DNA from: Kappaphycus alvarezii
Lineage: Eukaryota; Rhodophyta; Florideophyceae; Gigartinales; Solieriaceae
Direction: 5' to 3'
DNA length: 64,000 nt
Assembly: GCA_002205965.3 (NCBI GenBank)
Contig: NADL03000027.1
Location: 558,001 to 622,000 of the forward strand
Shown here in pieces: positions 13,441 through 40,736 of the stretch (within the stretch, counting starts at the first letter, position 1; every line of letters starts with the position of its first letter). The notes under the pieces were generated by a model that did not search any database, was not told where the DNA came from, and saw nothing but the letters and a program-made list of their open reading frames with translations. The translations under genes were made by a program, and so were the position numbers.

Positions 13441-13446
13441 ATTTGA

Positions 13447-16660: not shown

Positions 16661-17075
16661 CAGGATTCTAAAAAGCTTGGTGTGCGCAGATATGGGCCAT
16701 TTGTTAAGGAGCTAATTGGTAAGAATGCTGTTCGACTGGATCTCCCTGCTCATTTTAAATCCATCCAGTCATTCATATCATTCACCACACCACATTTGGA
16801 GCAGCCCGATGACATTGCTTTACCCATTCCTCCTGCGCCTGCACCGCTTGAACTGCCTGGTGGACCAGAACAGGAAGTTGAGTTATCTTGGATCACAAAA
16901 ACGTTGTACGGGTTACAAATTCTTGGTTTTGATGCGTGGTGTGCCATGTCATGATGCGAGTGGCAACCAACGAGGGACTTTGTAGATGTTATGGAAGATG
17001 GATCTGTCATGGTAACTGAGGCTTTTCAGCAGTATATTCGGAAGAACAATATACTACCGCAGTACCATTAACGAG
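16661..17075 (+). pseudogene. Integrase C-terminal and possible chromodomain-like tail
   Basis: After a GPFxVKEIIGxNAVRLDLP-type block (16,680-16,760, split over frames) comes a proline-rich linker (about 16,815-16,880) and a short tail. The last frame, before about 17,070, reads DFVDVMEDGSVMVTEAFQQY. This position is where chromodomain-bearing gypsy elements carry their targeting module, but the aromatic residues that define a chromodomain are not clear, so the call is tentative. Confidence 0.4.
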
Positions 17076-17117
17076 GACGTCAACAGTACGGTGGAGGGAA
17101 TAGTGAAACAATTTCTT

Positions 17118-17525
17118 TGTTACACCGCTGTGAAATAGAGACTTGTTCGGTTTTGTTATTTCAGTTCTCTACTACACAGTGGTGTAACAGAGAATCTGCA
17201 ATGTCTTGAATAAATTTAGAAGTATTATTTCCCTTCAATGTTTTATTTGACGTGGAGCCCCAAGTCATCGTTTTATTTACTTAGTTATATTCTAGATGGT
17301 ACAATTCTATAGTTACACCTCTACTCTCTCGTAAGTTCTACTGAGCTAACAAAGTATAGAATTTCTATAGTAGAGCTGCATTACTATCTATATAAAGGGG
17401 GCTCATCTGGATTCTTGTGGGAATCCAGGTACACTCCACACACCCTTTGCCCCCAACTTTCTGAAACCCACTACCATCGTGTCTACTGTTTCTTTAGCAG
17501 CGCCCCGGCTGCCTCCTCTGTTTAA
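17118..17525 (+). repeat. 3' LTR of gypsy element 1
   Basis: A copy of the 5' LTR, same length, beginning TGTTACACC and ending TTTAA where the 5' copy ends TTTCA. The TATA box is at 17,390-17,397. Confidence 0.88.
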
Positions 17526-17813
17526 ATGGTAAAGTGTTTGATCTCTAATCTAAAATCAATACGCAGTTCTTTATTTTTTAGCCTCACTACTCAAGGAGAC
17601 CTCGGCAAGCCTGCTCAAGATGTCCTGGTCTTCCTCGCCTTCACTTTTGAAGTGAGAGGCGAGGAAGGCCAGGATGCCCTGGGCAGGCCCGTGAAAATTA
17701 CTCGTCGCTGCTCCAACGAATACCTCCAAGTTCTGACCACTCTTTCACCGCCTACCCTGCAACGCACGGCTGACGCCGTTTTTCATAGAATTCTTGCCCT
17801 GTCCACTCCGTAA
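17526..17813 (+). other. Unrecognised 95-codon open frame
   Basis: The frame starts just after the 3' LTR of gypsy element 1. The product (residues about 20-90) has no motif I recognise. It contains the long inverted repeat at 17,609-17,690, so its apparent coding capacity may be incidental. No gene is seen from here to 18,320. Confidence 0.2.
17609..17690. repeat. Long imperfect hairpin, about 37-bp arms
   Basis: TTCCTCGCC...TCACTT (ending 17,646), a 3-nt loop TTG, then AAGTGA...GGCGAGGAA and on to about 17,690 form a fold-back with a few mismatches and one bulge. Size and shape resemble a microRNA precursor or a small foldback element. Confidence 0.65.
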
Positions 17814-18319
17814 GAAAAGTCCCTGCTCATGCCAATTAGAGGTTCCTTGACGCCTCGCCCTAATAAAGCTCTACCCGGCCTGATAGCTTTGGTAAACGAT
17901 GTGCCAATGAATAAAATTCTAATAACAAAAAACCACTATTTTAATTAAGAACTGTTTGCAACTTAAAAGAAATGTAGCCCACTGGCATTGGCACCATATC
18001 AAGCACTCTTCCATAGCCCCGATTAAATTTGTGCACAAAAAACGTAATTCATGCCGATAGAATCAGATCTACAAGAGCTTTCCGACGGTATGCATTAAAT
18101 ACCCATTCTGGAAGAACGGTCTCAAGTCCGCTTTTATTTTTTTGAGTCCGATTATAATTAATATCGTGTTGATGTTGGCACCGAAACTCTAAAAATGACT
18201 TAGGAAACGTGGCACTTCTCCGGATTTTCCCGGGATCTAGGCACAATCTGTTCCTCAGTGGTTAACTTGAAAGCTCTGTGCGGGTAGATTTGCAGTCAAT
18301 TCTTGAATAATTTGGCAAC

Positions 18320-19915
18320 ATGGTGTTTCCAGCTCATCAAGCTCACGATTTTACCTCTCACGTTCTGCAGCAGTCTTATGCTATAGAAGACGAAAGCTTC
18401 AAGGGTGCCGGCCGTGTGGTTCCACTTTCAGTTCCATTGATGCGGACATTATTGCGCCACATATGCTCTGCAAGATCAAAGTTGATGAAGACAAAGCGCT
18501 TAAGCTCAAATCCTGCATTGATCCTCACGGAAATGAGGACTGTATTCGATGTATTCGAAATGAGCTCGGCTCTGATTGTTCCATGTGGGCTCCTGTTAGT
18601 GTACGGATATTGACCTCTGTAGATTCCATTAGAAGTTGGCGCATCTCACGCACTGATGTGAAAATAGCATTCATACAAACAGGCGCTGCTGAGCGCGATG
18701 TCTAGTTTGTCCCATTTCGCCAGTCAGATGATCGATTCCGGTTTCTATGTCTTTTTCTTGCCATATCCTATGGCTTAGTGAATGCTAACACTATGCACCA
18801 TACTCAATTAGACAATTTGCTCCCCAATTTGGGTTTGAAACGTCTCATAGATTTTCTAAAGCTGTTCTAATGCATGATCGACGGCAATATATGTGTTCTT
18901 GTTGCTAAAATTGTGGATGAAATTCTAGCAACCGGCGAAAAATCCGAAGTTAGAAAGGTTATTAGCGATTTCAATGATAGGTTCAAGTTTGGCACTGTGT
19001 TAATGGTGACAAACTTACGTTAGTGCACGTGTTTGCCAAATCACTCATGCCTCCTCAAAGAGTAACACAGCTTTGGATAAGTGCAATAATAGTACGTACG
19101 TGTGGTAATCAATCTATTTTATTGATTTGTCTATCGACAACAACTGTTGACCTCAGGAGAGAGGCAGCACAGGTCTAGGGCGCCGAGAGACACGTCTGAA
19201 CCATAACATTACTTAGAATAAATACCCGACTCCCCGAGCAGAAGAGGGAGGACGGGGCATCCCAGAGGGACTTCTGGTTTCTTGTGCCCATTTTTGTGCT
19301 TCGCCCAAACAGCGACTACGCCCGAGCAGCTGGGGTTTCTCTGTCACCCTATCCTGAACAACACACTGTTGTGCATGGTCCTAGGAAATTTCGGTTCTTT
19401 TGTTTTAACATTATTCAGATCGTTGACTTCACTTGTGCTATTGACGGAGATGATAATCCCAATTAGCTTGAACTGCGTCACTAACGCGAATTCGTCGCAA
19501 AACTGGCAGGAAATCTAATTCGAAAGACACACGTTTTGCTCAATCAACAGCTCTCTTGGTTGGCTTGGCACTACTGTTTCCTCATTTTTTTCTTCTTTTT
19601 CCAGTCGTCTCCAACAGCCTCTACCCAGTTTACTTGTATCTGATCTGATTCAGCAGAAGTATGCTTTGTACGAGCTGCAAAGACTTGGTATGACCGTCAA
19701 GTATGGACGACCAAACGATGGAAAGGAATACCGGGTTTCAGTTTTTTGTTTTTGCAGATGCTGCACACCCTCAGAAAGTGCTCATCTTTCTACTTTGTGC
19801 GGTTTGCTTATTGTTTCTATTGAAGAAGATTCCTTTTACCATACTGTTTTACGGTCCTCGCTCAAATACAAGCCCCCTGTTCGTTCCATAGCAGGAGGAG
19901 AGGTTTTTTAAAACA
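18320..19915 (+). pseudogene. Ty1/copia RT and RNase H remnant
   Basis: Ordered copia blocks occur on the plus strand. About 18,455-18,550 encodes KIKVDEDKALKLKSCIDPHG, 18,640-18,700 has SRTDVKIAFIQTG (first RT Asp in DVK.AF), about 18,770-18,800 has YGLVNAN, and 18,890-18,935 has VAKIVDEILATG at the active-site position. After the solo LTR insertion come the QQLSWLGLA-type connection (about 19,540) and RNase H at 19,690-19,910 (FADAAHP, later SLKYKPPVRSIAGGE). The active-site motif reads IVDEI rather than the usual YVDDI. Removing the solo LTR joins GTV to VHGP in frame, confirming that one element was split. I cannot see its own LTRs. Confidence 0.85.
18998..19363. repeat. Solo LTR inserted in the copia remnant
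   Basis: The 366-bp segment starts TGTTAATGG and ends AACAACA, and is flanked by perfect 5-bp direct repeats CACTG at 18,993-18,997 and 19,364-19,368. Excision restores the RT reading frame across the site. TG...CA ends, size and target duplication make this a solo LTR left by recombination between two LTRs. It has no close copy elsewhere in the window that I could find. Confidence 0.88.
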
Positions 19916-20518: not shown

Positions 20519-23506
20519 TTACAACCTCTTCGGAGCTTCTTGAAATTCTCCGAACTCCAAGTATTCAGCTTCCAGATCCGCACGTTCAGGTTTTGGTGAA
20601 TCAGTTAGCGATGGATCAGAGCTTACCCGTACATCTGAAGACTGATCTAATTGTCTACTCGACTTAGCTACGTCGCCTCCTCCCACTGCTACAGCTCCTC
20701 TCAGCTTACTTTCAGCAGAGTTCTTGCTCTTTCCTTCATTTACATCGCTTCCCATGTCATCTGCCCTCGCGGTGGAGACCATGCGTTGCGATTCGTTGAC
20801 ATTACCACCAGAACTATCCTTCCTCTCGCTCCTCACTGGCGTCTCCGCCTCATTGCTGACCCCGACGTCGGCTAGGTACTCCTTTATCAACGCAACGCAT
20901 TCCTTGAGACCATCCGGCATAATGCACACAACCGATTCTGGAGTTACGGTATTCCCATCTCCTGCCAAAATTTCAAAGGTGACAAGCTCTGGTCTGCTTC
21001 TCTTGAACGTTATTCTCGAAATATCTTGAAGGTACCTTATAAGTTTCACTTCAAGCAAGTGACTTCGGTTGCTATGTGGACTGAACAAAGAAAATAATTC
21101 GCAGAGACACCCACATAACGCCTCCTAAATTCGTTCGTGCGACCACGTAAGCTTGCGCTATGATCTGATCTCGCTTTGCACGGGAATAAGCGCAAGCCAG
21201 CCATCACACGATCATCCATGACGTTCACAGTGAAACCCTTAGGCATAGTCGCAATCTCGAAGGAGAGGGTCTCATCCCGAGCCAACCCGGCTTGGCATCT
21301 CTTCCCCAGGGAGATTTGTTTGCGCTGAAAAATCCAGAGCTGCTCGTGCGTGCCGTTTGTCGGATAGGACTCTCGGCTGGAACTAGATTTGGATCCACCT
21401 GCACCCCGGCCGAGGGCTCATTGCATAAGATGGAGTATCAAGCAACCTTGGACTATTCTCAGCAGTTAATGCCCCGCTCCTCGCAAGATTTTGGCTGCTT
21501 TCTGAGGCCCATTTCCGGTGGTGCTATTCATGGAGGATATTGATCTCTGCAAGTGGGCCCTCCAGTAAGGAACTCCTAGTTCGAACGCCTTTTGTCCTCT
21601 CTGGAGGTTCTAACCGCTCGGGCGACATCTCTGCAGCATGTTTGTCTACAGAACCAGAGGGTGACGGATAGGCATTCGGTGAATAAGGGTTATAACTTGG
21701 TGCTGGCGGTGAGGCTTTGAAAATTCTCAGCTCGCCCGCTGTCCTTCTCTGCGGATTGCCCCGAAGTTAATGTTGATAAGGAGTATTTTAGCCCAATCCC
21801 ACTCAATGCCTTGTTAAGTGCACGTGACACTTCAGCATCTGTCTTTTCCAAAAATGAAGAAATACCTTGGACCCCACTGGGTGTATCTGCCTGATCAGAC
21901 GACGACACACGAGATGAACCCTGCGCTATGCCATCCTCATCATTCCTCCCTTTCGGCGTCTCGGCGACTTGCTTTCTCTATCTGCCCAACCACCCGCGGA
22001 ATTGATTTTCCTCTCCCTATCCCGCCTCCTGCGGCTTTGAGCCGTCACACGAGCCTTTCTCGCCCGCTCATGTTTCCTGTGGTCATAATCTACCAATTCC
22101 ACACCACTCAGACTGTCATCGGCATTTCCAGCAGCCGCCAAAGCCTCACGAAAACCTCCTCGCAGCGTGGACACGTACCGAATCCCGATACGAGTCAAAT
22201 AAAGCGCAAGGACATTAATGTCCATGTTATCTTCCTCCCGAATTCCAGAGCCCACCAAACAAATATGGGATTTATCTTTCAAAGGCTCACACAAGTCGAC
22301 TGCATTCTGCAACTCTCTCCTGGCGGCATCGCTCGTCTCATACGTAATCTTACCATTGGCCTCCCTCAAGGAATCCAAGGGCAGATGAGCAGCCTGTGCT
22401 AAATGCCCCGAGTTGTATTCGTCCAATGTGCGGCAATCCCATGTGAAGTAATGAGCCTCGCCTGCGACAAGATCCTCTGGGGTTGTTTGCAAGCAAACGC
22501 TGGCTTGCATTGCACGGGCAGCAGCCAAGCCGACAAGGTTGGGCTTTCCCGGAGTGGCGAGCAAGCGATCGATCATGAGACGCTGAAACGAGGGAGGGGT
22601 ATGCGTGACACGCATTCGACTGCCAATCTGCCATAAACGACGGACATCTTCTGGAGAATGGGCAGTAAGCATCATCAAGGATTCCGGAATTCTGCTTTCG
22701 TCGACGGAAAGTAAAACATCGCGTTTGGAACACAGTAAGGCGACCCCGAAAAATGTGGTGCCTAAAGGATTGTCCTCCAACAACAACAAATCCCACAGGG
22801 CGAGGACGGACTCAACAGTAAAGTTGCGTGCGAAAAGGGTTACAAACCACGAGGTGGCGTACAAATCCGGAGTCATCATATGTCGCTCCAAAAGCCAGTA
22901 AAGCTCGGGGTCATGGTAAAGCAAGACGCGGCCAAAATATTTAAAGAGGCGTTTGAGGACATCAAATACCCTTGTTTCTGAGGTTTCAAGCATCCACGGA
23001 GCAAAGCGATCAACAAACTCTGCAAACAGAGCATAGACTATGCGGGGATTACCGCCAGTATCAGCCAGCAAAACAAAAGGAGCAAGTAGCTCATTGAACC
23101 CCTGGACATATGCGACACCTTTGCGATCACAAAACAAACTCAGCAATCTCAACAAGGCCCCGCGCACAGCGGGTTGCTTGAAGCGTGCTAAGCCAGGGCG
23201 TGTTCTCTCGACATCCTTTTCGATTTGCTCCCTCGCATTTGCATCAGCGACAGAATCTCGTGCTGCTTGAGCAAAGGTGGCGGCATCCTCTGCAAGAAGT
23301 GCTTCGACTCGAAGGCGGAGTAGAAGAAGCCAGACTGCACCGCGCACTTCGTGAGGGATCGCACCATGAAAGGGAGCGGAAAGAAGGGCGGTGCGTAGAT
23401 TGGACAAGTCATGGGTTGAGGCGCAGGCGTTGGCGGCGGCACGGACCTTGCGAAGAAGGGTTGGGTCAGTAGGGAGGGGCTCCCATTCTTCGTCTTTCAA
23501 ATTCAT
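20519..23506 (-). CDS. TBC1D23: TBC1D23-like protein (TBC, rhodanese-like and C-terminal PH-like domains)
   Basis: The ATG is at 23,506 and an intact frame runs 526 codons to 21,926. Residues ~50-330 are a TBC (Rab-GAP) domain with IEKDVER (arginine finger, IxxDxxR) and YVQG (glutamine finger). Residues ~345-465 are rhodanese-like (WDCRTLDEYNSGHL, HICLVGSGIREEDNMD, STLRGGF). The match to TBC1D23 is specific because of the GSG.EEED block and the order of domains. Downstream frames continue the protein after several one-base shifts (near 21,930, 21,720, 21,400 and 21,075, plus one apparent in-frame stop near 21,535) and end with LQDISRITFKRSRPELVTFEI, the C-terminal domain that in animals contacts the WASH/FAM21 complex. 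In animals the protein bridges endosome-derived vesicles to golgins at the trans-Golgi. It is divergently arranged with the MePCE-like gene, 654 bp apart. The shifts are probably sequence errors. Confidence 0.9.
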
Positions 23507-23884
23507 AATTGTCAGAGGACGGCTGGGAACATGGTCGCGTGGAGTAGAGGGTTTGGTAAAGGGTTTGTTTGTTGATTCCGAGGCGGAGGGGATGGGGAGG
23601 CAAGAGGCGTTGGATGAAAAGACGGTACGGAACGAGCGTTAATGCAGAGGGACATGAAATGGGGGAAGACGCGGACATTTGCAGATAGCATGGAGGTTTG
23701 TCGAGTCGCTATCTACTCAGATATCTTGCAATTATTTCAATTTTCCCCCCTTCCAATCAAGAGGCCACCGCTATCCAGCAATGCAACCTGGCCCAGAAAC
23801 ATATTACATTATAGTGTACAACCTCGATGCAGTGACTGCTCTACCACTGCATTACAGTCCATAATGTGACAGTTTCAAAAGGGC

Positions 23885-24080
23885 CGTACTGTTCATGTAC
23901 GGTACTGTACAGTACAGTAAAGTACAATATCAACAGAGGCCTTGAAACCTGTTGTCCCGGAAAATTTCTGACGGCGTTTGTTGTTGACTGCCCGAAATGT
24001 ACTACTGTACAGCTAAATTTTTTGCAACCCAATTCGACAAAAATCTGCAGCGCTGTACTGTACAGTACTGTACCGTCCTT
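23885..24080. promoter_or_regulatory. GTACTGTAC palindrome cluster between divergent genes
   Basis: Two clusters (about 23,885-23,925 and 23,998-24,078) of overlapping GTACTGTAC/GTACAGTAC units lie in the space between the TBC1D23-like and MePCE-like start codons. Similar clusters precede other genes here. A shared promoter role is inference from position. Confidence 0.4.
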
Positions 24081-24160: not shown

Positions 24161-25608
24161 ATGTTCAACCTGCGAAAACGTCCGTCGATTCTTCAAGTTC
24201 GTGACGCCCCTCCACTGTTGCCAGCACGCAATGCCTCCCGACTCCCTCCATCCCCAGGCAGCCCCGAATCCGCCCACCCGTCTTCCGCATCGAACAAAAC
24301 CCAACCGTCCACTCAATCCGTTTCCCACGGCTCGTACAAGCGCTACTACCGTCGTCGACTCAACGGTGCCCATCCCGCCAACGATAACCGCCTCCCTCAC
24401 ATTCGTGCCGCCCTCTCCTCTTATCCTGCTGCCAAAATTCTCGACATTGGCTGCAATGATGGCCTCATCACGTCGCAACTAGCGAGACTCAACAACGCCC
24501 ATTCCGTCATTGGAGTTGACCTTGACCCGTCTCTCATATCCCGCGCTCGTCGAGTTAACAAAAGGCGCAAACGTGATGAAAGAGACCGTCTCAAAAAGTT
24601 GAAAAACTCAGACCCATCTTTTGTTCCTCTCAGTTGCAAAGTTGTCCAAGGCAGTCGCCTCTCTTCCAGACCTTCTGCTCCTGACGCAAACACCCCCGCC
24701 TCTGACCAGATTGACAACTCGACTTCAAGACCACTTTTTCACGACAGATTTCCTTCAACCTGTCTTACCGTTGTGAAGATGTCGCATCAGCGACGCCAGG
24801 CAGTATTGCGACTCAAGTTGCTGAATACGATGTTGTTCTTTGTCTCAGTGTCACCAAGTGGGTTCATTTACATGATGGAGATGTTGGTCTTGAACGTCTC
24901 TTTAAGCGCATCTATTCCCTCCTTAAACCAGGTGGCATTCTTATTTTGGAACCGCAACTTAGCCACAGTTACAGGCGCGCCCGTCAACGCGCCAGTAAAG
25001 CCTCCAAAGATACTTTCGAGAAAGACTTGAAACTCAAACCTGCAGAGTTTCCTTCATATTTAACTAGCACAGAGGTTGGCTTTGAGAAATTCAGGGTGTT
25101 GAAAGGAATAGGGGAAAAGGGACAAAGCTTTAACAGGCGCATATATGCCTTTTACAAGAAACACAACAAGTATACACACTCGGTTGTTGAAGAAATTGTG
25201 GAACAGATACTGGAAGAGGCAAGCGGTGGAACGGATGCTAGTTCGGCACACGGAGTAGCTGGGATTCTAGGATCTATCCTAGAGGATGCCACTGTAGGGG
25301 AGACGCATGCGGGAACCAAAAACTCGATCACGCCAGAGGAGGAAGGCAAGAGAGGTGTGAAGCGGAAGAGATCGTTGCCTATGGAAGGTGATAAGTCAAA
25401 TGGCGGTGGTGGTTGTAAATATCGCAGGAAGGACACGGTTGGTAGAGATGGCGCGAGGATTTCAGATACTCTCAAAGTCTCTGATACAACGGCGCACGAT
25501 GATAAAAGTGAGAATGCGGTAAAACAAGGCCTGAAGAAAGAAGATGTAGGCCGAGGAGAAGAGAAGGGCGAAGCAACTGCACAGGCTAGTGGGAATCGCG
25601 TGGAATAG
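24161..25608 (+). CDS. MEPCE: Bin3/MePCE-type RNA 5'-cap methyltransferase
   Basis: The ATG is at 24,161; two frames join at about 24,740-24,755 by one missing base and give ~482 residues. Residues ~65-140 hold the N-terminal Bin3 signature (YKRYYRRR, then ILDIGCNDGLITSQLA, the SAM-binding motif I, and VIGVDLDPSLI, motif II). Residues ~225-310 hold the Bin3 domain proper (LSVTKWVHLHDGDVGLERLF, LKPGGILILEPQ, then a K/R-rich helix and LKPAEFPSYL...VGF). Family members methylate the gamma phosphate of snRNAs such as 7SK, or the 5' phosphate of small RNAs. The KWIHLN-type block seen here is their hallmark. The C-terminal ~150 residues are charged and low complexity with KRKRS, a likely nuclear signal. 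Which RNA is methylated cannot be told from the sequence. Confidence 0.92.
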
Positions 25609-27650
25609 AAGGACAGGAGCGGGAAGTGGTTGAGATCATTGACGTGGAAGAGGAGGCTACATCGGATGATCAGAAGCAGATCTGTGCAACTCCGGCTTTG
25701 AATGGGTTTAACGATGGACCGCGCACGAGTGGAGTTAACGATGATGGCATAGGAGTGAGGGCTTTACGGTAGTTGATGCCGTTGGATTGATCAAGATGAG
25801 TACTTCACTGACCTCACGGCTCGGGCCGAGCCACCAGCTCGGAGCAATTGGTAAATAGTAACATGAGCACTAACGTAGACTTCATAACATACATTCTCAA
25901 GATAAGAGTAAATGAAGCTGTAGCTCTCCACTAATTTCCAAATGACTCTCGATCAGGAGAATGACACTTTGAGATTTGTCCATGTCAATACGGCAAGATG
26001 ATTTCTGCAACAAACATATTCATGAAACAAATCTCAATGCTTTGGTGAGCGGTGGTAGGTGCATGCCACCTGGTAACCAAACGTCCGCGCGGCCTCCGAC
26101 CTAGAGTCCGCCGCCAATGTTATTGCTGGCGATATAATGAAGCCCACACTTGCAACTTGGGCAGGCCCTTCACCTCCCAGATTCGGCTGAGATACCCGCA
26201 CTGGGCTGGACGTTCGTCTCCTCGCCCCCGGAACCACTAGGTGTACAGACCCAGTCGGTCATACGCTGCACAACAATCGCTGCGTTTCAGGTTTACCCTG
26301 GATGCCACAATGGCACTGCCATTTTCAACCATGTTTTCCAGGAATTCAAACCTGCGACTTTTGTGCAGCGATGCTGCTGTGGCTTTCGCTCGCAACTGGA
26401 ATCAGGAGGTGCAGTATCGTGTACGGAGGTGTGCAGTGAACACCTTCAACTGACAAAAGAAAGCGTCTCCTCTCTACTCGGGTCTTACGTTGAAGCCTTC
26501 AACTTGAAGGGAGTAAATGAGGTTCGGGCAGAATGCACGAAACGTGTTGTTGCCCTCGCTACAGGGATGATTAAGCCTCATGAAATCAACGCATCAATAA
26601 GCGAAACAGACCAAAGACCTATCGCGGCGATATCTCTTTGGTCTGTAACAAAAGGTCCTCCTGCTGTTTCTTCTCTGAGGCAAATGTTACCAGTCGTCCT
26701 TCCATTTGTATTGAAAAGCACAAATCTATAGCATACAAGTGTCATCGATGTCCTACCTTCAGGACTGACTACACTTCAACTAAGAGCTTCTAATCAGTCC
26801 CGCGGCAGGACTTGTATCGGTCCGCAAATCCAAGACCATTCTGTACCCAACACAAAAGTAGACGCTTTACCTTCAATTAGAAACTGTGCTTGTGCGCTAC
26901 AATGGCAGTATTGCATCGATGCCCAAATTGACCCAAGGACCTAAAACCCCTTACCGAGGTTAAAGCCGGGATAACAATAATTACAGAATTTGCCACTCAA
27001 AATATATTGAAATCTGTGAATACTCGGGCAGTGATTTACAGACCGAGTCCATAATCGCAGATTGATCTGATCAAGGAAGAATGACGCTTTATTGTTTGAA
27101 GACAAGTCCGCACTACGGTACACAGGACCTCGGGTTCTGCTAGACGGACGACTCCGGGCAATGGCTGAACCGATTGCCCACTCAAGCGAAAAAGGGACCG
27201 GAAGAAAACTCCACCACCTGAACCGGGGATTCAGAAGGCTTAACTAGGAAACTAAAGACAGTAGTGGTGATTTTGCTACGGTTGCATTAAAGCATGTACC
27301 AAAGAATACCATATGTCATGCTGATAATTTTTACTTTGTAGAGAGTGCGTTAAAACTCTTGCAGGCCCACAGTCTTTCTCACTAGTTTGAAATTTCAAAT
27401 TGCAAGGGTGAAACACAGTACCGACCTCTCCATGCATGTAAGAGGGCAACAACCTCTCTATCAGGATGTAACCAAAACTGAAGCGCAGGTACGGGTAGTG
27501 TCGCAAGTCACCAGGGAAGGATAGGCACTTGGAGCGCCGAAAAGCGTGTATCCATCAAGTAGCTTGTCCCATGATTTTACCCTATACCAAATGAGGGAGC
27601 AAAGTTGTCCATGTGAATGATTTGTGTACAATTCCGCTGTTATACTGTAG
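25609..27650. other. Intergenic; one unrecognised 193-codon frame at 26,150-26,731
   Basis: The plus-strand frame at 26,150-26,731 is open and not strongly biased. It contains a Cys cluster (QRCCCGFRS) and a KESVSSLLGSYVEAFNLKGV segment that looks helical. I cannot assign a family, and overlapping frames at 26,241-26,453 make a chance frame possible. The rest of the region shows no gene. Confidence 0.3.
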
Positions 27651-29662
27651 TTACACGCCACCGGCTTTCTTGTCCTTTTCCTCCGCTTCGGGCTTGCCCT
27701 CCTCCTTGTCGCTCTTGGGTTCATCGGAAGAAGTTGAAGACGAATCCGAGTTGGCATCCCGCTGAGCGTTTGCCTCCTGCGATGCCTTATACATCGCTTC
27801 CCCTATGGTCATGGCAGCCTTTTGTAGGGCCTCTGTCTTTTCCTTGATATCACTCGCAGTAGCACCGTCCTTTTCTAGTTGGCTTCTGAGGTCAGCAATG
27901 GCACCTTCCACACTCGCGACTTGGTCCGCATTCAACTTGTCCTTGTGTTCACCAAAGCTCTTCTCTGTGCTGTACAGGAGACTGTCAGCGTCGTTTTTCG
28001 CCTCTATCATTTCGCGCCTTTCCTTGTCCGCGGCGGCAAAGGACTCGGCATTGTTGACCATTTCTTGAATGTCGGCTTCAGAAAGTCCGCCAGAGCTCTG
28101 AATGACAATGCTCTGTTCCTTTCCAGTCGCCTTGTCGCGTGCAGAAACATTCAAGATACCATTCGCATCGATATCAAACACGACATCGATTTGTGGTACA
28201 CCACGGGGCGCCGGCGGGATTCCGACCAAATCAAATTGGCCCAGCATCTTGTTATCTACCGCCATTTCACGCTCTCCTTGCAACACCTTGATGCCCACCT
28301 GGGTCTGATTGTCAGCAGCAGTGGAGAATACCTGGGACTTTTTGGTTGGAATAGTGGTATTCCTGTTGATGAGCCTGGTGAACACCCCGCCCAGGGTTTC
28401 CAATCCAAGCGACAACGGGTAACATCCAAAAGCAAAATGTCCTTGACATCTCCCCGCAACACGCCACCCTGGACGGCAGCACCCATAGCGACAACCTCAT
28501 CCGGGTTTACGCTCTTGGATGGATCCTTTCCAAAGAATTCCTTGACCACCTCCTGTACACGTGGGACTCGTGTCATACCGCCGACCATAAGCACATCGCC
28601 AATATCCTTTGCCGAGATTCCAGCATCCTTCAAGCAGCTCTTCATGGGGTCCAGGGTTCGCCTGACAAGGGGATCGACGAGGGACTCGTACTTTGCACGG
28701 GTAAGCTTGAGGTTCATATGCTTTGGACCCGACGCATCGGCAGTAATAAACGGCAAATTGATGTCCGTTTGCATGGTAGACGAGAGTTCAATCTTTGCCT
28801 TTTCCGCGGCCTCACGCAAACGCTGAAGGGCGAGACGATCCTTGGAAAGATCGATCCCTTGCTCCTTCTTAAACTCTGTGACAAGGTAGTCGAGCAGAAC
28901 ATTGTCAAAGTCCTCTCCTCCAAGATGAGTATCTCCATTGGTAGCTTTGACTTCAAACACACCGCCAGAGATCTCAAGAATGCTAACATCAAATGTACCA
29001 CCACCCAGATCATATACGGCGACAATCTTCCCATCAGCCTTTTCCAGACCATAAGCCAATGCTGCGGCCGTAGGTTCGTTAATAATCCTAGCGACATCCA
29101 AACCAGCAATCTTTCCAGCATCCTTTGTAGCCTGTCGTTGGGCATCATTAAAGTAAGCAGGGACAGTGACGACGGCATGTTGAACCTTTCTCCCCAGGAA
29201 GCTCTCTGCAGTTTCCTTCATCTTTTGCAAGACAAAAGCGCCAACCTGGCTCGGGGAATACTTATCACCACCAGCCTCCACCCAGGCATCCCATTTGGCC
29301 CCTGAACAATCTTGTACGGCATTTGGCCAATATCCTGCTGTGTCTCCTTGTCTGAATATCGTCTACCGATGAGACGCTTTGTAGCAAAGAGGGTATTCTG
29401 TGGATTGGTAACTGCCTGACGACGTGCTGGAATTCCGACAAGCTTTTCGCCGTCGGTAGTGAAAGCGACGACGGAAGGGGTTGTGCGAACACCTTCGGCA
29501 TTCTGATGACACGTGGGGATTTGCCCTCCATGACGGCGACACACGAGTTGGTAGTGCCTAAATCGATTCCAATGACATCGCCAGATATGGCCGACGAGAG
29601 GCCACGTCGCGGCTGGGCAATGGGCGGCGGAGAAGAACGCCGAAACGGGTTAGGGCACGCAT
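27651..29662 (-). CDS. Mitochondrial-type Hsp70 (DnaK family)
   Basis: The ATG at 29,662 opens an Arg-rich N-terminus ([13 protein letters not shown]) typical of a mitochondrial presequence. The chaperone then follows: [13 protein letters not shown] (phosphate 1), [14 protein letters not shown] and [14 protein letters not shown] (nucleotide site), [15 protein letters not shown] (adenosine), the [10 protein letters not shown] linker into the substrate domain, and a helical lid ending in KKAGGV with TAA at 27,651. It folds imported proteins in the matrix and drives import with Tim44 and Mge1. Four one-base losses interrupt it (about 29,616-29,632, 29,503-29,507, 29,288-29,293 and 28,415-28,420); counting them back gives 671 residues, normal for the family. 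The alternative, a plastid Hsp70, fits less well because red algae usually keep dnaK in the plastid genome. It is divergent with the MBOAT gene. Confidence 0.95.
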
Positions 29663-30016: not shown

Positions 30017-30509
30017 CCCGGTCACTCTGGCAGCGTTTTGCCACACCGACCAATAGACGGGAGTGGATGTGTTGCTAGATGCTTCCAGAACAGAGTGCAT
30101 AGCGTCCAATACATTACTTACACGCGTCCTGTAATAGAAACCACTTGGGATAGTGTGATTGGAGGTAGGACAAAATGTGGGGACGTGAGGAGGGGAGCAC
30201 TTGGAAGAGAATGATTGGATGAAATGTGGTGGGAATTTGCGAATTTTCATAGGATCCGGGTTGGGTGATTGGCAGTGGTGCGCTCCACCTGGCGGACTTG
30301 AAGGGGGGCAACGGACTGGAAGGGCAGTTGTGCGTTGACCGCGATGGTGGCCATTACCTGTGGTGCTTGATGTGATTGGCTAGGGTAAACTTGGAGCAAC
30401 GTTTGGGGAGGAAAGATCCTCAAAAGTAGAGTAAAATTCCTGCTGAGAGAATCGTACAGTAACTTACCATGCCATGTTCCATGCCATTCACAAATGTGTG
30501 GCATCAACA

Positions 30510-30588
30510 CTACTGTACAGTACAGTACTGTACTGTACTGCCGTATCTACACAGCATTGCACAGTACAGTACAGTACTGTACTGTATC
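30510..30588. promoter_or_regulatory. GTACTGTAC palindrome cluster between mtHsp70 and MBOAT
   Basis: Two blocks of repeated CAGTACAGTACTGTACTG-type units (30,512-30,541 and 30,559-30,585) lie about 530-600 bp upstream of the MBOAT start codon and within the divergent intergenic space. They can pair with each other as a larger stem. Confidence 0.4.
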
Positions 30589-31112
30589 ATAGTTCAATTG
30601 CTCGCGGGTGCCTCAGTTTTACAGTTGAACAAGTTTCAGAGGAAATGTCAGTCAAGTGATTTCAATGAATTTTTTCAAGGCAGTCGGGGAATTGGCAAGG
30701 GTGAAAATCCCGCGAATCTGCATTCCTCGCATCGGCACAACCTCATCATCCTGGCAGCCAATCTGAAATGAGCCAGCTATGATCCAATGTCCTCATACAG
30801 CACTGCAGTACGGCCGGCAACCCTCCTCTTTTCATTAACACATTCTTGTCGCCACACTGCTCAACCATCACATTTGCCTTGAACAAAAAGGGTAAACCCT
30901 TCCAATCCAATCCCCCCGATAATAACCAACCGCATACCACTACCACCACCAACCTATTCCCCTTTCGTCGGCCGTACAAATACACTCCTTATTCGCTCTA
31001 CACATCCCCTCACCTCATCCTCTTGGACAACCCCCTCGACCACACCACACCTCTTCCCCTCAATCCCCATCCCCCCCCCCTCCCCCCTTCCCTCCCACCG
31101 TCACTCCTCAAC

Positions 31113-32541
31113 ATGGCTACCACCCTCTACAATGCCATACTCTCAACCGATCAATTCCTAACCCCGCCCCTCTCCTCTCCGCCGTCTCCACCCTCGCCGA
31201 TACCGCCGCCGTCTCCCCCGCAGAGATCCGTCTCTTCCTCTGCCTCCTTTCCTCCTATCCCATCGCCCTCACCTGGCGCGCCCTGCCCTCCGGCCCCTCT
31301 GCTTTCTTCAAGGATCTCTTCTCCGTGCTCGTCGGCTTTTGGATCCTTCAATTTATCAACGGCTATCAAGCTTTTCTCAACCTCGCCGCCTGTATCTTCT
31401 GCTATGCTTTGATGGCTATTCTTGGCCCCGTTCCGCTCGCATCGTCTCTTTTTTTGCAATGGCTATCCTTGCCGCCGGCCATTTGTACAGGCAGCTTACA
31501 GATTATCTCGGTTGGACTCTGGATTGGACTTTGATTGCAATGGTCACTACACAAAAGGTTATGGGCTTGGCTTACAATGTTCAGGATGCTGCAGATCCCA
31601 ATGCTACTCCAGAGCAAAAGTCCCGCGCAGTTGACAAGCTACCTTCCTTGTTCCAGTTTTTGAGTTTCATTCTATTCCCTGCAAATATCGCTATCGGGCC
31701 CTCGTTCGAATACGCTGATTACCGTGCTTTTGCTCAAGGTTGCTTGGCCTCCCCTGCACCTTATATACCAGGCATATGGAGATTGGCCCAGGGGCTGTTC
31801 TTCTTTGTCGCGCATACGGCCTTGAATATCAAATTGCCATGTGCCGCTTTATTGAGCAGTCGTGAGTTTTTCAAGACGGGCACCTTTTTGTCGCGCTATG
31901 CTACCGTATGGGTTGCGCTGTTGGGTGTCCGGTTCAAGTATTACTTTGGGTGGAAGATTGCAGAGGGCGCCGCATGCATGTCTGGCCTTGGTTATAATGG
32001 TATTGACAAGGAGACTGGGGCACAGCGTTGGGATCGCGTGGAGAATATTAATGTGTGGAAGTATGAAACAAGTCAATCCTTGCGAACAAGTTCGCAGAAT
32101 TGGAACAAGACCACCAACCTTTGGCTGCGTCGATATGTGTATGATCGTGCACCGCCGTCGATCAATTTGTACTTTACTTATTTGGTGTCGGCGTTTTGGC
32201 ATGGATTCTATCCCGGGTATTACATGTTCTTCTTGTCGGTGGCGGCGGCAACAATGGTGCATCGACAGGTGCGACGCACGATTCGACCAAGATTCATGCA
32301 GGTGGATGGGAAGACGCCAGGGCCCTACAAGGGTCTTTATGATGTGATGTCAGCGTTGGCAACGACGGTGACGCTAAACTACTTTATCATGTCCTTTGTG
32401 ATGCTGGCGTTTGACCTGTCGGTGCAGGCATTCCGCGGGTTTGGGTTTTATGGGCATTGGGTGCTGTTGGTGGCATTAGTTGTGTTTAACTCAGGTTTAG
32501 TCAGGCCACCCCAGAAAAAGTTGGTGGCAAAGAAGGAATAG
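31113..32541 (+). CDS. MBOAT-family lysophospholipid acyltransferase
   Basis: The ATG at 31,113 follows a long C/T-rich leader. Three frames (start frame to ~31,165, 31,165-31,430, then 31,430 to TAG at 32,541) each step by one lost base and together give ~476 residues, close to LPCAT3-type enzymes. Recognisable are GHLYRQLTDYLGW and TLIAMVTTQKVMGLAYNVQD, the 'MvltqKl..laf...DG' block. The two MBOAT catalytic regions follow: SQNWNKTTNLWLRRYVY (Asn) and VSAFWHGFYPGYY (His). These match the ALE1/LPCAT3/MBOAT5 branch, which moves acyl groups from acyl-CoA to lysophospholipids at the ER. Many hydrophobic segments fit a polytopic membrane enzyme. It is divergent from mtHsp70. Acceptor preference cannot be read from the sequence. 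Confidence 0.93.
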
Positions 32542-33380
32542 GAGAAAGGAGTAGTAGAGTTTGTTTATTGATGTTGTTTCTTTGCTGCCCATTCTGTTTT
32601 CCTCTAGTCTAATGCCGCGTCGGCTGTCGCTGCCATCGTGAGTATCCACAATGTTTCACGTAAACAATGGTTGTTGGCTAAATGTATTACTGCCGTCACT
32701 CACGCATATTTCCGAGTAGAGAATTTGAACAGCAGACAAACAGAGAACCGTTTCATTTGCGCAGCACAGGGTATAAAGGAAACCCAGCGATTCTGGAGCT
32801 GATACTGTACCCCTTGCTGTAGCAAAGGCGAATAACTAGATACCAAGTATCAATTTTTCTCGTTCCCGGGGCTTGGTGACGCGGCGTGCACGACGTGTTA
32901 GAGGTCGAGATGAGGTCTACAAACACGAAATATGGTGAGTTTGGGATTCGGGGAAAATCAATCGCGGTGCCCGCATTGGACATGACCAACCACGACGATT
33001 AGTCATATCATGACGGGCGCTTCAAGCGTGCGGCCAAGGGCCAATTGCTCGTTTCAAGAGGCGACATGCGGATTAAGACGCGCTCTGGCTAGTTGAGGTA
33101 CGGAACCAACAGAGGTGTGGTGGTGAAACATCCAACTCTTCACACTTGACGAAAAGCCGCCGAAAGGGCAGTAGTGAGAGGTGAGCCACAGTACAGTACG
33201 TACAGTACTGTGCGAGGATTTGTGGAAGAGTAGGCGATGTGACATATGCCACGTGGCATGTTTCTTATTATTCAATGCATCCGTAGAGTACATACAGCAC
33301 AAAACAAGATCTCTTGGCCCCTTGGCGCGGCAGTGAGGTGAGTGGAGGATGTAGCGGACCGGAGCTCGGTGCCAGGGCGG
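32542..33380. other. No recognisable gene
   Basis: Spacer after the MBOAT gene. It contains a short GTACTGTAC-type palindrome at about 33,188-33,212. Confidence 0.45.
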
Positions 33381-33386
33381 GGAAAT

Positions 33387-34761
33387 TCATCTTGAACTGG
33401 CAAAGGAGTCCCGCGGGTAGATAAATGTGGTTCTATCGAGGATTGCGGAGCGAGTTGTGGCAGTGAGTGCGAATGGGCAACTCTCACGGCGGGAGTAGCG
33501 TCTGTGGCGAGGAAGGGACAGGAGGGGCTTGGTGGGAAGGGCGAGCGGGCGCAGGACGGCGGCCCTGGCTTGGAGGGCGGGCCTTCTCAATGTTTTGGAC
33601 GTGTTTGAGAAGGGCATCAGCAAAGGAGTCAAGAATATGAGGACCCACCCGGGCACCTTTGCTCGGCGCTCTTGAGAAGCGGGCTTCAAGTCGGAGGCGG
33701 GTTTTCATTCTCCTTGCGGCAAGAGTCCCGAGGGCCTGGACGGCGGCGTTGGGGTAGCGGCGACACCCGGAGTTGAGGCAGCAGACTATGCATATGCTTG
33801 AGAGTGGTCTTCATCGATTAGGCCGCGTAGGCCAGGAAGTAGGCGTATGTCCGCATTCCGACAAATGTTACGATGATATGCGACGGAAGGGTGCTGCCAG
33901 CGGTCTGGGCAGTATCCAGAATGACGTTCCCGGCAGCGCGGAGCGACCTAAACGTGATCGCAGGCGAGGAGGGATGACGATACGAAGAGCGGATGCAGCT
34001 CTGCTTCCTTTGCCGGGGACCCCAGGCAAGGAGGGTCACCGGGTAAGCATTCCGCCGATCTTGCCCCCCTTCACCCTGCAACCCTTGCTGCAACATCCGC
34101 CATCATCCACACACAACTAAATCGGGTGCAAGAGGAGGCCAGAGCGAGGGCCTCCTGGCAGGACGACTCATAGGCGGCTTGCTGCAGCCCAGCTGACCAT
34201 ACTGCCGATGACAACCGGCACCGGATACGCGGCCTCGCCCACCGCCACAGCGCCCCTGCCGCATTCCTCCTCGCCCACCTCTCCAACGCCACCCAGGTGT
34301 CGACGGGCCACTTGACCGTCATGCTCTCTCGACTTCTAGGACTCGATGTCTCCACCTACTCCCTACCGCTCATCTGCCTCCGTTGTGCTCGCAGCGTAGA
34401 CCCCCCGCTAATCACGCGGCTGAACCCTTCCGTTTCTAGATTCGGTCGCGCGCACCGTCACAACTCGCTCCGCAATGCTCTTACCACCCACATCTCCGCG
34501 TCACGAGACTTGACTGCCAGTTCGAGGTGCCTCTTTTCGTCCCTAATACAAAACTCCGCCCCGTGGACATCCTTTTTCCCTCCCCGCTGCTCGGAGGGCC
34601 GACCAGACCCGACCCGTCGCCTTTGACATCGCTGTCCGCGCCGAGGCCTCCTTAGCCGCTGGCGGCGTCACGGACGCAGCACCTCGAAACAAAGCCACGA
34701 TTTTTCGAACGCAAACTCTCGTGCAGCCTCCCTCGCTTCTCTCACGTCTCAAATCATTCAC
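33387..34761 (-). CDS. Unrecognised gene, heavily frame-interrupted (tentative)
   Basis: A GC-rich tract in which several minus-strand frames look like pieces of one protein. From 34,761 comes NDLRRERSEGG, then AALRAAGREK-like sequence. About 34,480-34,580 in another frame encodes EFCIRDEKRHLELAVKSRDA, which looks like a genuine helix; 34,071-34,355 has SRESMTVKWPVDTWVALERW. The 33,484-33,708 frame encodes GPHILDSFADALLKHVQNIE before an Arg/Pro-rich tail. I cannot name the family. The composition is more gene-like than the neighbouring spacers and the frame breaks match those in the certain genes. It may also be chance frames in GC-rich DNA. Confidence 0.3.
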
Positions 34762-34829
34762 CGGATTTCACATTTGACTCCCGCGCTGCGCCCTCTCCCC
34801 AGTGAGAAACTTGCCTCGCACGATCGAGG

Positions 34830-35510
34830 AAGCACAGTATTGTACTGCACATATACTGCACATAACTGATGTTGTGACGAGATTGACCCGGTCTGATGCA
34901 GCGAATACCCCGCCCCTCCCCCGGTGGCTATGCCATCATAGTATCATTGCCATTCCAGGCGAGCTATGTATGTTGATGGCAGTACGGGAAGCGCAAGCCG
35001 TTACCACTGGAGTGGAAGAAAAGGGTCTTGGCCGCGAAAGTGGCAGCCATTCCTGGCGTGGCACTGCCGGGAAGATCGAGGCTAGGATGGCATTCTGTGT
35101 TGCTAGCTTTCGACTCGTCAGGATCACCTTTTGGGACAGCATCCAAGGTCGGAGAGAGGATCTTGGCTGCTGTCGCATCTCGTAGCGGACGCTTGACAGG
35201 AGGAGTGAAGACTCGCCTGTATCAGAAGCTTAGCTACGCAATCTGGTCAACGTGTGCCGCGTCCGTAATTTGTCGTGCCCCGCAAACCGCGACCTGCAGC
35301 CCAGTCACTCGATTCTAACTTTTAGTTGTTGCAAGGACTGCGGCGCTGCATACCGTGCATAAGCGGCCAAAGAATGATTACGGATAGATGTACAGTAGGG
35401 TACTGTATTGTCCTAATTCTTCGTGGCGCCCAGTGCTGTGCATGTACTGTGCAGTACCAAAATGCACCCTTCCGTTGTTTTACTGCAACCTACTGTACCA
35501 TAGCTGATCC
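34830..35510. promoter_or_regulatory. Spacer upstream of the P450 with GTACTGTAC palindromes
   Basis: Units occur at about 34,838-34,862 and more densely at 35,388-35,505 (TACAGTAGGGTACTGTA, GTACTGTGCAGTAC, CTACTGTAC), ending some 145 bp before the P450 ATG. The open frame at 35,028-35,318 has no recognisable motif. Confidence 0.35.
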
Positions 35511-35648
35511 AGCTTGCCACCATTCGAGGTCGTCCGCTGCAGTGAAGATAGACTACAGGTGACGCGATCGCCGTCAAGTCTACCAAACTTGCACGACCCC
35601 TCCCTTTAATTCCCAAATCCCTGTGTCAGCAACATCTGCTTCTCAAAC

Positions 35649-37288
35649 ATGAGATCGAACGCGTCCATCACAACCACCTACTTTCCCTCCCTCACTGACT
35701 TGGTGAGGGACACTTCACATTACTTCACTTCAATCCCATCCTCAATGACCACCTCTTTCTCGTCCCTTCATGGCCCTCCAAAAGTAGCTCTCTGCGTAAC
35801 CGCCGCCACTGTTTCCACCCTTGCACTTCGATCACTTTTCAAGATGTATCTCTGGCGCCGAGCCCTGCGAACATGTGTTACCAATGACCCACCTCCAGGC
35901 CCAACTCCCCTTCCTTTCCTCGGGAATCTCCTTCCTCTGAGCGAGCACTACTACAAGACCCTTTACGATTATGTTGACCATCCCGTTAGCATCTATTGGG
36001 TTCTCTCCACCCCCTTTCTTGTCGTTAACGACGAGCACGGCCTCCGTCGTGTCCTCGGCGGTTCCAATGGCCTCTACGCAAAGCCCAAGTACTTTGGTTA
36101 CCGATCACGTGTAGTAAGTCAAGCCGTGAAACTTCACACTCAAAGGTCGTTCATGAATCCCGCCAGTACGATCCGGACGGCGATGCCTCACGTATAGCTT
36201 TGGAGAACTTGACACTCGACTCTGTGCCCACCATGAAACTTTCAATGCAATCTCTCTTGGCAAAACTTGCCGCAGAGCCTGCACCCCAAAATAATCATCC
36301 CTCATTCAGTACCCTTTCTACCATTCGAGAAATAGTGGTGCAGCTAAACTTGAAAGTTCTCTTTGGATTAGATACGGATCGTGATTCCGAGGAAGATCCC
36401 GCTAAAATCGCCGCGATGATCGGTCTTGCAGGCACTGAGTTTGCGCGACGAATGGTGAACCCTCTTAAAATGTTTTGGGACATCTTCGGGAATGTGCGTT
36501 ACGTTCGTGACGTGTATGGCCTAATTTCTTTGGGACGAAGATTGTGCAAAGTTCTTGACGAGGCAGGCGATGTCATTTCCAATTACGCTGCCCAGAACGG
36601 CAAGTCAGGGGAAAGTCTCTCAGGGTTGAGTTGGGTCCACGCGTGGGGAAAGGTCGGCAAGGTCGGCAAGTTGGGAAAAGTGGTAGGATTATTAATGGCA
36701 TCAACGCAGACGGTACCCTTAACGGCGGTTTGGATGTTGTATTTGGTGGGAGGAAATCCAGAGGTCAAAAAGAAATTGCTTGTCGAGTTGAATAAGGCTG
36801 GGGCAGCGGAGGTCAACGAGTTGACGGCTGAGCTCTTAGGGAAGCTCAAGTATGCAGATGCGGTTATTCGTGAGACCTTGAGGTTATTCCCTCCATTTCC
36901 GCTGATTCAACGAGAAGCACAGGATGACGACAATTTGTGCGGAATACAGGTAACAAGAGGCACGCCAGTGTACGTTGTGCCCTGGTTGGTGCATAGGAAT
37001 CCAAAGTTGTGGCCAGATGCGGATGAGTTTAAACCGCAGAGGTTCCTCAGCAACGAAGCACACGGAGATGGGAAAAGTGACTGGGTGTATTTGCCATTTG
37101 GAAGAGGATCGAGAATGTGTGCGGGGTCAAAGTTAGCCATGATGGAGCTAAAGGTGTTACTGGCCTGTGCTATACTGGGTTACGAGTGGGAAAGTGACAG
37201 TAAGCATGCACTAGGTGGTGGACAGTTTCCAGAGCTTGGGATGGTGCCCAAGGGGATAGAGCTGCATATGAAAGCCAAGGCACATTAA
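35649..37288 (+). CDS. Cytochrome P450 monooxygenase
   Basis: The ATG at 35,649 and TAA at 37,288, joined across one lost base near 36,125-36,135, give about 546 residues. Residues ~38-62 form a membrane anchor, followed by the hinge PPPGPTPLPFLGN. Helix I is represented by LLMASTQTVPLTAVW (the T of A/GGxxT is present but the Gly-rich part is atypical). Helix K has VIRETLRLFPP with ExxR, then FKPQRFL (PERF region), and the heme loop PFGRGSRMCAG with the axial Cys. It is a class II, ER-anchored enzyme using a P450 reductase. Substrate and CYP family cannot be assigned by eye. The 3' end lies 46 bp from the convergent zinc-ribbon gene. Confidence 0.95.
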
Positions 37289-37334
37289 CACTAGCACAGG
37301 TAAAAACCAGCCGGCGGGAATTATATTGCGGCCG

Positions 37335-37889: not shown

Positions 37890-38178
37890 CTGATGTTTTT
37901 GAGGCCTTCTCAGTGACTCTTCTTGAAACGGAAACGGCCGAAAATTGCGGTAAAAATGAAAGAATTTCTGGACGGTGATAGAGGAACAGCGCTATCTTTT
38001 GAGGCGGGTATGTATGATCGCGAGGTCATGCCCCATGCCCTTTTTGCACCAGCGCCATAGTTGTCGAGCTTGCCTGGGACAACATACAGTTCTTATGATA
38101 ATTCTGTATACAGAGCTCGACACGCGTGTGTGGCAGGAAATCGTAGAAAATTACAGAAGATAGATAAAAGGACAAATA

Positions 38179-38204
38179 CAGAGAAAACTCGCATTTTAGT
38201 GACC
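38179..38204 (+). repeat. Left terminal inverted repeat of the pogo element
   Basis: Begins CAGAGAAAACTCGC and ends TTTTAGTGACC. It is an exact reverse complement of 40,711-40,736. Confidence 0.95.
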
Positions 38205-38544
38205 ACTCATTTTAGTGACCATCTGCGGTAGAGTGTATTTTTGGCCTACAATATCATGCGACATGTGTGTTTTAAATCTATGAGTGCACAAATGGATATT
38301 AATAGTGACCCATTCCATGACAGTGACTTTTTCCACAGAGTGACCCTCGTTTCATGTACGGTCACTCAAAAAACCTTATTTTTAATTAAATTCAACAGAT
38401 TTAATTTATTTCTCTACTCTTCATTGGACTTACAAAAATTCACTGATTCTGCTTTGATGAGAGGTTTTCTGGCGATAGTCCATCACGCTCTGAATTTCCA
38501 GGTCAATAATACCAGCAAGGTCTGCTCGTGATCCTTTCAGGAGC

Positions 38545-40370
38545 TCATGATTGGCTGCAACCATTATTTTGAGCTCCTGGGCAAGCGCCTCCGCTGCCCT
38601 CTGAAATTAATAATAAATGTTGGCGGTGCTCCACATCAATTTCTATATCTGGTTCCGTATCTGATATATTAAGCACAGGGACCGTTTCTGAATCCGCCTC
38701 TATTGCCGCTGATACGGCTACATCCACAGCATTTCCCTCTGTTACTGGTTGGCAACAGTCCAGTACATCCTCTTCGCTCAGAAATGCCTCCAAATCCAAC
38801 TCAGAAAAGCCTTCAATGACCTCCAATTCACCCGATGTGTCCACATCGTTAATAAATTCCCTCATGTTGTCTTCATTCCATCGATTACAGTTCTCATCTG
38901 GATCAATCAACGAGTTTACGGAAGCATCATCCAATGTTTTGAGCCACGCTTCACCTTCCATCTTGGCATTTTTTGCCCTTAACGTAAAAACAGCCTTTTC
39001 TGTACTTAGAGCGGAACCACGTGGAGGCCTAAAAGAGGGTTCTACCTTTGTGATATTCTCGTCACGAATAGATTACAGTTTCTCCTGCTGAAAAGGGGCC
39101 AATATTCCTGTCTGTAACCAACCATTAATAATAACTGACTGAGGGACCATATTCCACGCCTTTGCCATCATACATACAGCATCATAGGTAGTAACGGCTT
39201 GCCATATTTCAAGAGTACCGCGCTCTTCCGCTGGAAGCACACATAAGCTTGTCCACGTATTCAAGTATATGTTCCACGAGAAGCCGCGAAAGGCGCATTT
39301 AAAAGATCTGCCCATGGATGCATCCACTGGCTGTAAACATGAAGTCATGTTGGGAGGCAAAAAATGCTAACGACGTTATGATACACGTTGTAGTCAAATT
39401 GCATGAGCTGAACACTTGTCGACAATGTTGACAAGTGTCCTTCCTTCCAGTTCGCCAATCTTATCGTACCCTCTCATTGTTATTGCCCACAAATGTTTCG
39501 TATTCCAGGCATTACATTGGGACTGATAAAATATCCCCAGATCTCGCATCGGATCGAAATGTCGAGGGAAGCTGCGTGGCGTCTTCGATTTTCCAATTAC
39601 CACTAATGGAGCTTTCCTTCCATCAGCGAATACAGTAGTACTGCTGTCAATCGATCCTTTACACGCCCATACGTGGCCGCCCTATTACTAGAGCGAATTG
39701 CCCGACTTGGAAACGATCTATACAGCAGTGCCACTTCATCCGTATTTGAGATTTCTTGAATTGGAAACACGGCGAGCTGTTTCTGTAACGCCAATCGTGC
39801 GGAAGCAACCGTTGCTTCAGTGAAGTGACATTCTGTCCTAGACCCTTGCTGCTATGCAACGCATTCCGTTTGATGAAGTTATCGACCCAGCCATGGCTAG
39901 CCTTAAACGCCTTCAAGCGGTCAATCTTAGCTTGGATGGTAGTGCTTGAATCCATATCGGCTGTTTCGATGCGTGCTGATAGAGATTCCACAAGTTTATC
40001 ACGCAACTCAATGGATATTTGCATGCAGACGTCAGCTCTGAACAGAGACTATCCCTTCATATAAACAATTCGCTCCATCATGAATTATGAAGTGCCTTTT
40101 CCAACTCTGGAAACTGTCCCGTTGACATTCTAGACATTTTGCGCAGTTTCTTGCTGCCATTCGATAAGGCCATTATTTCTGCACTCTTCTTTCTCCAAGC
40201 AAACACTGCGGCTTTTGATATGTTTAGTTCTCTGGCTACAGCGGCATTAGTGTACGGCTTGTTGGTTTTTGGGTCAGTTTGTGCCGTTCCAAAGGTTCAT
40301 CGTTTCGCACCCCAAGAAGGCGGAGCGCCTTTTCCTTCGTCTCAAAATTGGGTTGCTGTCGTTTTGTCAT
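38545..40370 (-). pseudogene. pogo/Tigger transposase (CENP-B-like HTH plus DDE_1)
   Basis: The ATG is at 40,370 (MTKRQQPNFETKEKALRL). A first helix-turn-helix follows at about 40,200-40,260 (another frame), then the CENP-B-type domain at about 39,880-40,010 (KASHGWVDNFIKRN). The DDE domain is spread over frames: about 39,660-39,760, GRVKDRLTAVLLY; 39,394-39,603, VIGKSKTPRSF and LVNIVDKCSAHAI (second Asp region); 39,290-39,360, MPPNMTSCLQPVDASMGRSF with the third acidic residue. The 38,545-38,961 tail is acidic. At least four frame changes occur. With perfect termini this may reflect sequence errors more than decay. Confidence 0.85.
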
Positions 40371-40710
40371 TGTAAAGGATAGCTGTCGGTTGTGTTGTGT
40401 GAATGTTAAGGAAGAAGTGTGGAGTGGGTTTGGTAACTGCAATGCTTGTCGCCTAGTTTTCATTCACCTACATTCAATTACTGAAGGTAACGGGTGTGGA
40501 TCTGTAACGGTTGTGGATCTGTAACGGTGGGTTATGTAATACAGTACAGTACATGGCATGTTATTTAACACACCGTTAAAACTGTAAATAGTTCATGGGG
40601 AATTGATACCTTTATTCTGCCGGTCTGTGGACTGGTACACGTCACTTGTTACTATTGTGAACCCCTCAATACAGCGACATAAAAGACTAAATCGCGCCGC
40701 TGCAAATAGG

Positions 40711-40736
40711 GGTCACTAAAATGCGAGTTTTCTCTG
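40711..40736 (-). repeat. Right terminal inverted repeat of the pogo element
   Basis: Begins GGTCACTAAAATGC on the plus strand and ends GTTTTCTCTG. It is the exact partner of the left repeat, followed by TA. Confidence 0.95.

Follow-up and report, generated by a model that had tools for sequence, protein, structure and literature searches.

Four frame steps in a mitochondrial Hsp70 gene of Kappaphycus alvarezii very probably reflect residual long-read consensus error

The window, a stretch of 64,000 nucleotides at C27:558001-622000 of the 336-Mb, 884-contig assembly, carries on its minus strand a mitochondrial Hsp70 gene of the DnaK family whose coding region is divided into five frame segments, with four one-base shortfalls between them. 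Along the 625 positions of the DnaK profile NF001413, four minus-strand window frames give successive matches, at 2-29, 22-98, 102-389 and 389-618; positions 99-101, which are matched by no window frame, fall at one of the steps. These matches place three steps within the conserved Hsp70 protein. The fourth is in the presequence, beyond the reach of profiles alone, and is visible only against the sister copy of the gene on contig C497. Among the best 60 of 133 matches to solved structures (phmmer), the largest window piece is closest to mitochondrial Stress-70 (452 bits), followed by DnaK (437 bits), BiP (327 bits) and cytosolic Hsp70/Hsc70 (310 bits). Taken with the DnaK profile matches, this closest structure identifies the gene as mitochondrial Hsp70 (Stress-70 protein, mortalin; bacterial DnaK), and nothing unusual was noticed in the protein itself. 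The 55 Hsp70 loci on viral contigs were kept out of the analysis. The features of the locus are as follows.

19906-41770, no strand: stretch collinear with C497:605551-621831, inverted; aligned in eight pieces of 86-97 per cent identity, which are separated by insertions in the window.
20522-23708, minus strand: RabGAP/TBC-domain gene; C497 copy open for 1070 aa, 1060 aa from the first Met; window losses are six of one base, two of two bases, one of ten bases and one of three bases.
24161-25769, plus strand: Bin3-like methyltransferase gene; C497 copy open for 538 aa; the window has three one-base losses, one four-base loss and one two-base gain.
27651-29662, minus strand: mitochondrial Hsp70 coding region, start codon at 29662 and stop at 27651; one base short at each of four points relative to the intact C497 copy.
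29622-29624, minus strand: frame step 1, within a base run of the presequence (a run of 4 in C497).
29504-29505, minus strand: frame step 2, outside base runs (run length 1).
29290-29291, minus strand: frame step 3, outside base runs in C497 (run length 1).
28417-28419, minus strand: frame step 4, in a base run, a run of 4 in C497.
30947-32538, plus strand: MBOAT-family gene; 478 aa from the first Met in C497; in the window its coding part lacks one base at each of 31162 and 31426 and six bases at 31124.
35610-37291, plus strand: cytochrome P450 gene; 550 aa from the first Met in C497; the window has a one-base loss at 36136 and two three-base losses.

The sister copy of the mitochondrial Hsp70 gene, which runs from C497:612870 onward in the same assembly, is open for 671 codons and matches PF00012 over positions 1-599 of 599 in a single frame, with an arginine-rich leader (judged by eye) ahead of the conserved domain that may be a mitochondrial targeting sequence. 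Over 2012 aligned coding bases the two copies differ by four indels only, each a one-base loss in the window. The sequence-only reading had described four steps in one direction and predicted 671 residues once the missing bases were restored, and the C497 copy agrees with it on both; the two run contexts that it had named, at 28,415-28,420 and about 29,620, are both runs of four in C497. Hsp70 counts are those of the true coding region, and the counts for an upstream-extended frame (796 aa) and the stop-to-stop row (7 and 3) were left unused. Substitutions number 46, with 44 synonymous and two nonsynonymous (pN/pS of 0.014), and are distributed over codon positions 1, 2 and 3 as 2, 0 and 44. 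This near-absence of nonsynonymous change, with none at the second position, marks the reading frame as that of a strongly constrained gene. The relaxed constraint by which a pseudogene is recognized, in nonsynonymous changes and mixed indels, is not seen in the window copy, in which the indels are one-base losses only.

The same comparison bears on whether any base is missing at all. If the steps were short introns, or the first of them an alternative start, no loss would be needed, and the presequence step does lie outside the conserved domain, where the profile alone could not exclude an upstream exon. At the inner steps, however, the frame pieces abut or overlap, and C497 has a single open frame from the same start codon, with differences of a single base at the steps. 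We give this reading a negligible probability.

The Hsp70 gene lies within the block collinear with C497, beyond which six further, more distant pieces (80-85 per cent identical) align with window positions 1-19883. The block counts given below cover seven of the eight pieces, leaving out window 30574-30915 and the six distant pieces. A search of the assembly DNA with 3.4 kb around Hsp70 gave at least 41 matches (40 of 668 candidates were scored), which, as listed, are C27 itself, C497 (in two pieces) and a further 38 places sharing only a short repeat beside the gene. All five genes of the block (RabGAP/TBC, Bin3-like, mitochondrial Hsp70, MBOAT and P450) are open in the C497 copy and stepped in the window copy; longer indels are also present in the four neighbours, with none in Hsp70. 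The Bin3-like gene is the weakest case of the five. Over its whole length it shows 31 synonymous and 53 nonsynonymous substitutions, indicating weak constraint, and a loss at 24752 separates the part that matches a methyltransferase from the part that matches Bin3, the two lying in different frames. The rate in the other four genes predicts 3.1 losses in Hsp70, so that the four observed are ordinary for the block.

Comparison of the block with C497 as the reference covers 15,733 aligned bases, of which 9842 are coding (five genes) and 5891 non-coding. Substitutions reach 2.9 per cent in coding and 8.1 per cent in non-coding DNA, and indels of two or more bases number 9 and 25, respectively (0.91 and 4.24 per kb, p = 2e-5). 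One-base gains in the window number 0 in coding and 10 in non-coding DNA (p = 5e-5); coding DNA was here defined as frames open on C497, a choice that tends to keep losses in C497, scored as window gains, out of the coding count. Frames of at least 150 aa were examined on either copy, and no window frame with a codon-position bias was found to break on C497. One-base losses in the window number 16 in each class (1.63 and 2.72 per kb, Fisher p = 0.15). The genes are thus clearly poorer in substitutions, gains and longer indels, and not significantly poorer in one-base losses. For want of a clear third-position bias in its substitutions, the Bin3-like frame had at first been placed in the non-coding class; that four-gene count was dropped after a match to the Pfam Bin3 domain, and recounting with five genes changed the coding and non-coding one-base losses from 13 and 19 to 16 and 16, leaving the conclusion unchanged.

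Across the block, single-base losses exceed single-base gains (32 versus 10, p = 0.0009), and longer indels are balanced (19 losses, 15 gains). The excess of the non-coding over the coding one-base loss rate, 1.1 per kb, is close to the gain rate of 1.7 per kb, and the block counts can be explained by ordinary, balanced indels plus a uniform error of approximately 1.6 losses per kb. Single-base indels little affected by coding constraint, together with substitutions and longer indels that obey it, are the pattern expected of long-read error, and this is the pattern found, with coding frames chosen on C497. The enrichment in base runs that such error also predicts is present: of the 13 one-base losses counted in the coding DNA of four genes, 8 lie within runs of at least four, against about 0.8 expected, and in Hsp70 alone the figure is two of four.

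These counts also bear on a real loss of function, in which the C27 allele would be a very young pseudogene beside an intact copy. Such a loss would be tolerable, given the second copy, and slippage in runs is a real type of mutation. With no more than two nonsynonymous changes, however, there is room for only some 8 neutral substitutions (95 per cent bound). For that number the gain rate of the block predicts 0.29-0.34 losses, with a probability of four or more of 0.0002-0.0004, and the non-coding losses predict 0.55, with a probability of 0.002; even counting every one of the 32 losses as real, despite the suspected errors among them, predicts 0.93-1.10, with a probability of 0.015-0.025 (all rough bounds). 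Four unrelated neighbouring genes would also need to have been broken, and Hsp70 shows neither a gain nor a longer indel. A young pseudogene is therefore very unlikely.

We conclude, with a probability of roughly 0.93, that the four steps are residual long-read consensus error, that is, bases dropped from the sequence of a normal, functional mitochondrial Hsp70 gene present as two diverged sister copies. The window Hsp70 is not new biology. The two copies would most likely represent two haplotypes of a diploid or dikaryotic eukaryote, and the window copy would lie on a stretch of C27 with an incompletely corrected long-read consensus. Roughly 1.6 single bases per kb would have been dropped from this stretch, most of them from short runs and four of them from Hsp70, and the missing bases would be present in the DNA of the organism. 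Counting against consensus error, base runs are also where real slippage tends to occur, and only two of the four sites are in runs. The proposal of the sequence-only reading that the steps are residual long-read indel error is nevertheless supported by the intact sister copy, by the almost purely synonymous divergence, by one-base losses in excess, with no significant reduction in coding DNA, and by four neighbouring genes that behave alike.

Sister copies are common in the assembly: 44 loci were compared and 13 sister pairs aligned, comprising mitochondrial Hsp70, BiP, three Hsp90 and eight CCT or CCT-like pairs. Hsp70 on C562, C1, C556 and C534, and CCT on C479, C571, C569 and C585:4.44 Mb, have no same-gene partner among the compared loci and are uninformative on sister copies. 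Nine of the pairs include an open copy, and in five of these (mitochondrial Hsp70 and four CCT) the partner is stepped, with 126 synonymous and 3 nonsynonymous substitutions across the five. In the four CCT pairs, the stepped copies are those on C447, C446, C675 and C36 (82 synonymous substitutions and 1 nonsynonymous), and they carry 10 one-base losses, 5 one-base gains and one two-base loss. Four of the gains, with one loss, are in the C36 copy, so the error is not one-directional everywhere. Four further CCT or CCT-like pairs lack a clean full-length reference, and their differences were counted in the sequences as given; CCT at C585:1.62 Mb differs from its sister on C736, within the longest open frame of the latter, by 3 substitutions, 7 one-base indels and 1 longer indel.

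Two readings that take the losses as real can be set against these pairs. In the first, one diverged haplotype would recently have shed single bases across many genes, with substitutions lagging behind and one intact haplotype remaining at each locus; we consider this highly improbable. In the second, the steps would be real and made good at expression, through programmed frameshifting or base-inserting RNA editing. The profile matches are in register on either side of the three inner steps, and all four steps are in the same direction, as such a correction would have it. The C497 sister copy, however, requires no correction, one-base losses also occur outside genes, and gains are found among the stepped genes elsewhere; by inspection, rather than by a motif search, the four sites are dissimilar, two in base runs and two outside. 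Correction in expression thus has only about the slimmest of chances.

Other conserved genes are clean. All six Hsp90 matches lie in one frame, with both copies open in each of the three Hsp90 sister pairs, and both BiP copies are open with no indel. C497 is open at all three places compared (the mitochondrial Hsp70 block, an Hsp90 and a CCT). Stop-to-stop frames, which reach past the genes, give one-base differences in the four intact pairs of 0/1 for BiP and of 1/3, 0/0 and 0/1 for Hsp90. In the extended frame of the Hsp90 copy on C675 (longest frames of 823 and 736 aa), two gains, of one and three bases, are found at positions 90 and 195, although across the Hsp90 profile both copies of this pair are single-frame. 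The flanks of the Hsp90 pair on C552 and C24 show 14 one-base and 8 longer losses against none, yet the coding frame is intact, so an asymmetry in the flanks does not always mean error in the genes too. Consensus error is therefore patchy across the assembly, and the warning is a regional one. The suggestion that the steps change how every apparent pseudogene here should be read is supported for this gene and this stretch; for the whole genome, and for the transposon remnants of the window, it would overreach the evidence.

Some further Hsp70 matches were noted in the same survey. Those on C1, C556 and C748 are split between frames at abutting or overlapping coordinates. The match at C120:174137-175955 contains seven TGA codons and is distributed over several frame pieces, and is a candidate for a true pseudogene, unlike the window gene. 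At C562:85585-87366 and its flanks, the genes (named by eye) follow a bacterial-type grpE-dnaK-dnaJ order, by which C562 appears to be a bacterial contaminant or associate in this eukaryotic assembly.

False pseudogenes arising from long-read indel errors are already known (PMC12007338, PMC8445201; Watson and Warr 2019 as cited there). The cases described in PMC12007338, and in Watson and Warr 2019 as cited, resemble the present one in that single-base indels split genes and inflate pseudogene counts. They differ in that here two diverged copies within one eukaryotic assembly were compared, with no reference genomes or reads, and in that the error here is patchy, with other conserved genes clean. 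PMC8445201 reports apparent frameshifts in a Trypanosoma brucei assembly that were fixed by allele-specific assembly, likewise a case of apparently gene-breaking frameshifts in a diploid eukaryote traced to assembly; there, by that account, the cause was partly the collapse of two alleles, whereas here the copies were kept apart and the losses are seen in one of them. Wherever the consensus of the present assembly is equally poor, the numbers of genes, the pseudogenes called and any allele reported as lost would be wrong, and caution is needed before genes near Hsp70 in the window are called dead, a caution that applies to this stretch and its like. The comparison between sister copies of one-base losses with gains and longer indels, inside and outside genes, provides an estimate of error that requires no reads.

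Inserted DNA is a further large difference between the two copies. The stretches at window 845-10877, 11455-17525, 33178-35233 and 38147-40739, each 2 to 10 kb long, have almost no counterpart at the corresponding points of C497, and the window in turn lacks the 3.3 kb at C497:621832-625138. By eye, from reverse transcriptase, integrase and zinc-knuckle motifs, window 13447-16654, 46171-51784 and 63415-63714 are presumably remnants of LTR retrotransposons; the one frame searched, at 13447-13905 in the first of these, has no Pfam match. A frame at 39662-40048, in a stretch without a C497 counterpart, matches the DNA-binding domain of Tc5 transposase (PF03221, E = 8.8e-06). A repeat of roughly 170 bases at 27075-27241, approximately 400 bases past the Hsp70 stop codon, is 93-97 per cent identical to at least 38 other places and missing from the C497 copy, and probably represents a short mobile element in which the two copies differ. 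The 8-mer TACTGTAC occurs 30 times in the window, for example at 23903-24073 and 30454-30582, against 0.84 expected (100 shuffles, with a largest shuffled count of 3), and 25 times in 80 kb of C497. Some of the window occurrences lie in overlapping clusters on both strands; the 8-mer may belong to a small dispersed repeat or serve as a binding site.
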